The notes under the pieces were generated by a model. The model saw only the letters and a list, made by a program, of their open reading frames with translations. It was not told the origin of the DNA and ran no database searches. This document shows, piece by piece, positions 20,465-22,389 of a stretch of DNA of 64,000 nt. This stretch comes from Bacteroidota bacterium (lineage in GTDB: Bacteria; Bacteroidota; Bacteroidia; AKYH767-A; 2013-40CM-41-45). The translations under genes were made by a program, and so were the position numbers. The stretch spans positions 1 through 64,000 of the forward strand of contig JAPLDA010000022.1 of the NCBI GenBank assembly GCA_026391945.1. Direction: 5' to 3'. The first letter of the stretch is position 1, and every line of letters starts with the position of its first letter.

Positions 20465-20661
20465 GTATTGAGTATTGAGTATTGGGTATTGAGAGGAACG
20501 GGTTCCTTAATCTCTCAAATCCGAAATCTAAAAGAGACGATCAGACCACAGACGATGAGACGAGAAGTGAGCCGGAAGAAGTGTCTTAATCTACCTAACC
20601 ACCCAATCCCTCAAATCCAAAATGGTAAAAGGACGATTGGACCACGGACGATGAGACGAGA
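20465..20661. repeat. Heptamer tandem and degenerate word repeats
   Basis: Four tandem TATTGAG-type heptamers occupy 20466-20493. Two 30-bp near-identical blocks, 20536-20565 and 20632-20661 (GACGAT..GACCAC, then GACGATGAGACGAGA), follow, and repeated CTTAATCTACCTAATC words continue to about 20710. The 20462-20843 gap contains only these repeats and the rpsU promoter; I see no gene. Confidence 0.7.
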
Positions 20662-20792
20662 GCCGGCAGCAGAGCCTTAATCACCTTAATCTACCTAATC
20701 TACTTAATCAACTCTATTCCCAAATCCCGAAATCCCACCCAATCCCGGCCTCATCGCCATTTGACGCCGAATTTGTCGCTCCAAAATCATTT

Positions 20793-20843: not shown

Positions 20844-21038
20844 ATGATTATTGTACCTATCAAAGAAAATGAGCCGATTGACAAGGCTTTAAAGAAATTC
20901 AAGAAGAAATTTGAGCGTACGGGCGTTGTCCGCGAGCTTCGCAGGCGCCAGTCGTTTGAAAAACCTTCCGTGGAACGCCGCCAGGAGATCATCCATGCGC
21001 GTTACCTCGAGGAATTGAGACGCGACGGAACCCTTTAA
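20844..21038 (+). CDS. rpsU: 30S ribosomal protein bS21
   Basis: A 64-residue bS21. The sequence MIIVPIKENEPIDKALKKFK, the KFERTGVVRELRRRQ helix and the basic YLEELRRDG tail are typical of the family, and the length is normal for Bacteroidota. In this phylum bS21 helps hide the 16S anti-Shine-Dalgarno tail on the ribosome platform. Gene order rpsU-xerC-hpf is a common Bacteroidota arrangement. It has its own consensus promoter, and another promoter follows within eight bases of the stop. Confidence 0.97.
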   Translation: MIIVPIKENEPIDKALKKFKKKFERTGVVRELRRRQSFEKPSVERRQEIIHARYLEELRRDGTL

Positions 21039-21045
21039 GATTTTC

Positions 21046-21076
21046 TTTGTAACAGGAAGAACTTATTGTATCTTTA
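21046..21076 (+). promoter_or_regulatory. Promoter of the xerC leader
   Basis: TTTG at 21046-21049, exactly 19 bases, then TATCTTTA at 21069-21076. It starts eight bases after the rpsU stop, so transcription of the leader/xerC can be independent of rpsU. The likely start site is around 21083. Confidence 0.7.
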
Positions 21077-21102
21077 CGCGTACCATCGATAACTTAGTTA
21101 TC

Positions 21103-21159
21103 ATGAAAATGTTGGTAAAGAAATTAGCAGGGAGAGAATTAAATAGAGCATCTATTTAG
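21103..21159 (+). CDS. Putative 18-residue leader peptide upstream of xerC
   Basis: ATG 21103 to TAG 21157-21159 encodes MKMLVKKLAGRELNRASI. It is immediately preceded by a perfect palindrome GATAAC-TTA-GTTATC (21088-21102). Its last codons and stop lie inside a strong terminator hairpin (21132-21166), so a ribosome finishing this ORF would cover the right arm. That geometry fits a translated attenuator; a ~95-nt small RNA from the same promoter is the main alternative. There is no run of one codon type. Confidence 0.4.
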   Translation: MKMLVKKLAGRELNRASI

Positions 21160-21175
21160 TTCTCTCTTTCTTTTT
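21132..21175 (+). terminator. Terminator/attenuator between rpsU and xerC
   Basis: A 16-bp stem GAGAGAATTAAATAGA / TCTATTTAGTTCTCTC with one G-U pair and loop GCA, followed by TTTCTTTTTG. It ends nine bases before the xerC ATG, so readthrough or a further start is needed for xerC expression. Confidence 0.8.
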
Positions 21176-21184
21176 GTCTGTAAC

Positions 21185-22066
21185 ATGAACGTAGAACGTT
21201 TTCTTCAATACATCCGGTTCGAAAAACGGTTTTCACCTCACACCGTATTGGCTTACGAGAGCGACCTCGGGCAGTTTTTTGCCTATGAGGAAGCAACGTA
21301 TGAAGTGAAAGAGGTGCAGGAAATCAACCATTCCATGATCCGCTCCTGGATCGTAAGCATGATGGAAGCGAAGATCTCCACGCGTTCCATCAACAGGAAA
21401 ATCACCACGCTGAAAACATTCTATAAATTCCTGCTCAGGAACCAAACGGTTTCGGTGAACCCGATGCTGAAAATCCAGTCGCCCAAAACTTCCAAACGCC
21501 TCCCGGTATTCGTGGATCAGCATAAAATGGATTTGCTGTTCGACCAGGTTGATTTTGGCGAAGGGTACGAAGCATCCCGCGATAAGCTGATTCTCGAAAT
21601 GTTTTATGCCACCGGCATGCGTTTGTCGGAACTCGTGAACCTGAAGGATTCTGATATCGACCTGGGCAACTGCCAGGTAAAAGTATTGGGAAAAAGAAAC
21701 AAAGAACGCATCATTCCGTTTACCTTTGCACTCAGGAATGTGATTACTGAGTATCTTGAAAAGAAAAAGGAAAGTTTTTCGGAGAATAATGACCTGCTTT
21801 TTGTGACTGACAAAGGAAAGCCCATTTACCAGAAACTCGTTTACCGGATCGTAACACAACGCCTCGGCGAAGTGACTACGCTGGAAAAGAAAAGTCCGCA
21901 TGTGCTACGGCATACCTTTGCCACGCACATGCTCAACCACGGAGCTGACATCAACAGCATCAAGGAAATTCTTGGCCATGCCAACCTGAGCGCTACGCAG
22001 GTTTACACGCATAACACCATTGAAAAATTAAAACAGGTTTATAAACAAGCTCACCCGAGAGCATAA
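21185..22066 (+). CDS. xerC: Tyrosine recombinase XerC/XerD type
   Basis: A 293-residue tyrosine recombinase. An N-terminal SAM-like DNA-binding domain (residues 1-85) precedes the catalytic domain with Arg146 (TGMRLSEL), H239-xx-R242 (HVLRHTF), LGHANLS and the nucleophilic Tyr in TQVYTH. Xer proteins resolve chromosome dimers at dif. The position between rpsU and hpf is a conserved Bacteroidota locus usually labelled xerC; assignment as C or D from sequence alone is uncertain. A promoter, a short ORF and a terminator lie directly upstream and probably control its expression. Confidence 0.93.
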   Translation: MNVERFLQYIRFEKRFSPHTVLAYESDLGQFFAYEEATYEVKEVQEINHSMIRSWIVSMMEAKISTRSINRKITTLKTFYKFLLRNQTVSVNPMLKIQSPKTSKRLPVFVDQHKMDLLFDQVDFGEGYEASRDKLILEMFYATGMRLSELVNLKDSDIDLGNCQVKVLGKRNKERIIPFTFALRNVITEYLEKKKESFSENNDLLFVTDKGKPIYQKLVYRIVTQRLGEVTTLEKKSPHVLRHTFATHMLNHGADINSIKEILGHANLSATQVYTHNTIEKLKQVYKQAHPRA

Positions 22067-22074
22067 TCATTTAA

Positions 22075-22092
22075 AAAGGAGGAAATCATATG
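22075..22092 (+). promoter_or_regulatory. Strong Shine-Dalgarno sequence of hpf
   Basis: AAAGGAGG at 22075-22082, seven bases before ATG 22090, is a near-perfect anti-Shine-Dalgarno complement. Most genes in the window, including rpsU, have none. Confidence 0.75.
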
Positions 22093-22389
22093 AGAGTTAG
22101 TATTCAATCCATTCATTTTAATGCAGACAAAAAACTGCTTGACTTCATCCAGGAAAAAGTCAGCAAGCTTGTTCACTTTTACGATCACATACTGAGCAGC
22201 GAGGTTTTCCTGAAACTTGATAAATCAGACAACACAGAAAATAAAATTGTTCAGATCAAAATCGAAATCCCAGGCGGTGATGTAATGGCCAAAGAACAAT
22301 GTAAAACTTTTGAAGAGGCCACCGATTTATGCGTGGCCACGCTAACACGCCAGATCAAAAGGCATAAGGAAAAAGTCCGCGGGATGTAA
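22090..22389 (+). CDS. hpf: Ribosome hibernation promoting factor
   Basis: A 99-residue short-type HPF/RaiA (sigma-54 modulation family). It has the expected MRVSIQSIHFNADKKLLDFIQEKV opening, a beta strand set with EVFLKLDKSDN and VQIKIEIPGGD, and a basic C-terminal helix (ATLTRQIKRHKEKVRG) that binds 16S rRNA at the decoding centre. It should inactivate ribosomes under slow growth. It follows xerC by 23 bases and carries a strong Shine-Dalgarno sequence. The tRNA genes and tuf that usually follow in Bacteroidota are absent here. Confidence 0.95.
   Translation: MRVSIQSIHFNADKKLLDFIQEKVSKLVHFYDHILSSEVFLKLDKSDNTENKIVQIKIEIPGGDVMAKEQCKTFEEATDLCVATLTRQIKRHKEKVRGM

Follow-up and report, generated by a model that had tools for sequence, protein, structure and literature searches.

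A possible translation-responsive attenuator between rpsU and xerC in an uncultured family of Bacteroidota

How does RNA polymerase (RNAP) reach a gene whose only recognizable promoter lies on the far side of a terminator? This question is raised by the junction between rpsU and a xerC-type recombinase gene in a 64-kb stretch of DNA (the window) from a member of the Bacteroidota (genome 3.1 Mb, 114 contigs). Here rpsU, xerC and hpf are consecutive on the forward strand, and the leader between the first two carries a promoter, a short open reading frame (ORF) and an intrinsic terminator. An earlier note, made from the letters alone, had described a series of promoter, palindrome, ORF, terminator and xerC at this place; every listed part was found. 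The reading that is tentatively preferred below is that the leader is a cis-acting attenuator of the xerC-hpf unit that responds to translation.

The promoter (21046-21077) contains a -33 element, TTTG (21046-21049), separated by 19 nt from a -7 element, TATCTTTAC (21069-21077). It is of the Bacteroidota type, for which the consensus is TTTG/TAnnTTTG (PMC7366714), with A instead of G at the last position. A σ70 scan found nothing at this promoter, and the E. coli consensus is unmatched; thus, the "consensus" promoter of the earlier note holds for the Bacteroidota type with one change, but not for that of E. coli. Transcription is predicted to start at about 21082-21084. A 5' hairpin, GATAAC-TTA-GTTATC (21088-21102), then abuts the start codon of an 18-codon ORF, MKMLVKKLAGRELNRASI (21103-21159), which runs from the ATG at 21103 to a TAG at 21157-21159. 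This stop codon falls within the 3' arm of the terminator (21129-21175), a hairpin with arms at 21129-21147 and 21151-21169, a 3-nt loop (21148-21150), and a T-rich tail to about 21175. The stem, previously given as 16 bp, is 19 bp including three G-U pairs and is the longest among the T-tailed hairpins with loops of 3-8 nt in the window, where the runners-up have 15 bp. The fold of the leader has a z of about -4.9 relative to 200 dinucleotide shuffles, none of which was as stable. The first gene past the terminator is xerC (21185-22066; Pfam PF00589 and PF02899). Since the first terminator after the rpsU stop codon, which ends at 21038, is the hairpin that begins at 21129, the same structure is, as read from the sequence, also the sole terminator for the rpsU mRNA.

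The arrangement recurs in relatives. The searched set holds 11 genomes of this uncultured family, ten of which, that of the window included, have a xerC orthologue; in the other nine, the orthologue is 60-73% identical and lies downstream of a comparable junction (in G005 a contig end cuts off rpsU). In all ten, a TAYYTTTAC sequence is present at the same place, the 5' arm of a T-tailed hairpin follows it at a distance of 49-70 nt, and the stem ends 9-21 nt before xerC. These short distances leave no room for a second xerC promoter, so that in ten of ten xerC is reachable only via the intrinsic terminator of the leader. This predicted passage through a terminator is the strongest argument against the leader being a coincidence. 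The folds of the family leaders have z values from -1.6 to -5.1, with nine of the ten below -2. An alignment of the ten leaders by MAFFT, analyzed with RNAalifold, gave no consensus structure, the stems being misregistered; pairs were compared instead in the register of the codon alignment of six leaders whose ORFs align without gaps. In this register, 13 stem columns have pair types changed on both sides, and thus the stem appears to be under selection while its sequence changes. Most family leaders also fold into a separate, weaker 5' hairpin, of differing sequence, between the promoter and the stem. In one of them (L006), about 90 nt before xerC, this hairpin is the palindrome CCTGATAGCTATCGGG, probably a dispersed repeat in Bacteroidota.

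Other lineages have a different order. In other families of the same order, the rpsU-xerC junction contains either a terminator and then a promoter or a promoter alone. A wider comparison used 80 named loci among the matches listed, nearly all from Bacteroidota. A T-tailed hairpin lies no more than 35 nt from xerC in 33 of these 80 listed matches, and 21 of the 33 carry the -7 motif within the hairpin, in either the loop or the 3' arm (3.8 expected, P 9e-14). Loci with a promoter nested in the terminator in this way include L064, L066, L069, L070, L075, L091, L107, L109, L125 and L138. Consequently, at such loci the xerC RNA would lack the 5' arm and escape termination, while the rpsU RNA would terminate. 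The same gene pair thus likewise has one hairpin terminator and one promoter, but in the window's family the -7 element is ahead of the entire hairpin, so that transcripts from both rpsU and the xerC promoter would meet the terminator. Given this contrast, expression of xerC in the family should depend on readthrough, which backs the attenuator suggested in the earlier note over coincidence. No paper on rpsU-xerC leaders turned up in literature searches.

Does the ORF take part? For the window sequence alone, an ORF that ends in the stem is unremarkable (P ~0.5), and the position of the stop is meaningful because it recurs in relatives. In eight of the ten family members an ATG-initiated ORF ends between 13 nt before the stem and its interior; five of these stop inside the stem, namely that of the window genome (G000) and MIMLVKKSGGRKINTEV, MNLTDKKSKGRKISRHY, MTMVEKKSEGKKLSAAMH and MLKVMKPNGREFVK in G009, G010, G002 and G005, respectively. 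Shuffling of the part upstream of the stem predicts 3.65 such ORFs rather than eight (P ~0.002), and column permutation indicates amino-acid similarity specific to one frame (P 0.0065 with four sequences, 0.025 with six; other frames not significant), although these P values ignore the shared ancestry of the ten genomes and are thus generous. Between G000 and G009, the first 13 leader codons are 79% identical, compared with 70% for xerC, and a peptide motif, KK-x-x-G-(R/K)-(K/E), is present in several relatives. This modest conservation across the family points to translation and retention of the ORF, without showing a role for the peptide. The conservation in related genomes that had been proposed as a check is thus seen within the family for the promoter, for the terminator with its compensatory changes, and for the stem-ending ORF in all but two members.

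A ribosome at the end of this ORF might affect the terminator. In E. coli, the ribosome represses terminators when a stop codon is near (PMC4824070). In the genome of the window, all eight recognizable terminators of ordinary genes start 15-34 nt past a stop codon, and in G009 the distance is at least 13 nt for 15 of 20, a pattern that would follow if ribosomes interfere with terminators close to them. In addition, the phyla with runaway transcription that are listed in PMC13323073 do not include Bacteroidota. According to the attenuator model, RNAP would start at about 21083 and reach the terminator, where many transcripts would stop as an RNA of about 93 nt, while those that read through would express xerC and hpf; the same terminator would end the rpsU mRNA. 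When a ribosome on the leader ORF follows closely behind RNAP, its footprint at the stop codon would block closure of the stem and thereby increase readthrough. For this, the stop codon could be located in the stem itself or at most 13 nt ahead of it. As the ORF has no run of regulatory codons, the simplest candidate for the sensed signal would be the general capacity for translation initiation.

Several observations weigh against this model. The leader AUG is only 26 nt before the stem, and a ribosome would therefore catch up with RNAP only if the polymerase pauses. In G009, five of the 20 terminators are within 11 nt of a stop codon. The ORFs of three relatives have only 4-8 codons and stop 1-13 nt before the stem (MIIAKGKT in G004, MMVKKA in G006, MIVN in G008), and the leaders of G003 and G001 contain no ATG-initiated ORF; these three upstream stops and the short spacing speak against the simplest form of the earlier attenuator reading. 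Changes between the leader ORFs show no clear excess at third positions. Finally, no competing antiterminator fold was seen, the 5' hairpin and the terminator coexisting in the predicted folds, and the generous P values given above belong here as well.

The main rival to the attenuator, possible but less probable, is that the hairpin is an rpsU terminator of fixed partial efficiency, so that the upstream promoter supplies a constant low leakage into xerC-hpf and the ORF is passive or merely stabilizes the leader. The AUG-to-stem spacing favors such ribosome-independent termination, since in E. coli terminators placed less than 100 bp into a coding region are efficient, the ribosome not having caught up (PMC4824070). 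However, a fixed ratio would not call for stem-ending ORFs that are commoner than chance or for one frame with protein-like conservation. Because a stop in or near the stem favors control by the ribosome while the AUG spacing disfavors it, the attenuator is preferred only tentatively, and fixed leakage is its nearest competitor.

The note had also offered a small RNA, which is unlikely. In this case, the RNA of about 93 nt, consisting of the 5' hairpin, a purine-rich single-stranded part and the terminator, would act in trans, with xerC expressed by leakage. Judged by sequence, such an RNA would have a promoter and a terminator to itself in each of the ten relatives, with the 5' hairpin in most, and a purine-rich stretch around GTAAAGAAA is conserved. 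However, the sequence drifts outside the promoter and this stretch, the element is always directly upstream of xerC, and the leader, searched as DNA, is present in a single copy in its own genome. Rfam, at both gathering and permissive thresholds, gave no match for the window; the best permissive hit scored 19.4 bits, the cut-off being 70.

It is very improbable that the leader senses the status of bS21, the rpsU product, for hibernation. In this scheme, the terminator's 5' arm, rich in purines, would be a Shine-Dalgarno (SD)-like landing site for ribosomes without bS21, and hence with a free 16S tail, which would open the terminator and also favor the SD-bearing hpf. The 5' arms are indeed purine-rich (GGGAGAG, AGGAGG, AGAGGAG and the like), and their predicted pairing with the anti-SD averages -7.7 kcal/mol, compared with -4.0 kcal/mol for other hairpins of these genomes (P 0.0025). 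However, purine-rich arms also follow from pyrimidine-rich 3' arms of terminators, and the pairing of arm and anti-SD is much less stable than the stem itself. An equally remote idea, that the ORF is a tiny gene for an 18-residue peptide, with a promoter and a terminator to itself, or a reinitiation device feeding xerC 25 nt downstream, accords with the KK-containing motif but not with a peptide that in three relatives has only 4-8 residues and in two is lost, nor, for reinitiation, with transcripts that end at the terminator and cannot feed xerC.

The neighboring genes can be assigned from Pfam matches. Upstream, rpsU (20844-21038) encodes bS21 (Pfam PF01165, E 3e-19); between the gene before it and rpsU, positions 20470-20730 contain imperfect repeats (TCTACCTAA, GACGATGAGACGAGA, CCCAAATCC and others) that resemble degenerate intergenic repeats. 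Downstream, hpf (22090-22389), a ribosome hibernation factor gene of the hpf/raiA type (Pfam PF02482), begins 23 nt past xerC, and from this spacing the two genes probably share one transcript. A strong SD sequence, AAGGAGGAA (22076-22084), precedes hpf in the window and is kept in relatives: about eight of the ten family members and 22 of the 30 other Bacteroidota loci read have one (window 22076-22090; L005-L012; L062-L123). This is so although in Bacteroidia bS21 masks the 16S tail, so that ribosomes normally ignore SD sequences (PMC9976891); hpf could be favored by ribosomes that lack bS21.

If the preferred model is true, the junction would be a conserved Bacteroidota attenuator that connects translation with both a recombinase for chromosome-dimer resolution and a hibernation factor. 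It would also be a clear example of how an escape design becomes a readthrough design when the promoter changes place relative to the terminator. Similar orders of parts are known elsewhere. The upstream ORF attenuators of vmlR, msrD and hflXr likewise place a short ORF ahead of a terminator, but are triggered by ribosomes that a drug has stalled, usually by way of an alternative fold, and the genes here are unrelated to resistance. The trp and his amino-acid attenuators share the series of promoter, short ORF, terminator and genes, and leader-peptide attenuators of this type are reported to be probable in Flavobacterium psychrophilum (PMC9723704). For the present leader, amino-acid attenuation was rejected: a run of regulatory codons (KK only, in some relatives) and a competing antiterminator hairpin are both wanting. 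The closest analogy is pyrBI-type attenuation in E. coli, although membership in that type is not claimed. There too a leader ORF, of 44 codons rather than 18, runs into the terminator, and a ribosome close behind RNAP would obstruct the stem, so that transcription of the genes beyond it increases. The leader described here would work in a similar way, but with no recognized U-rich pause tract tied to UTP, and with xerC-hpf as the genes under control.
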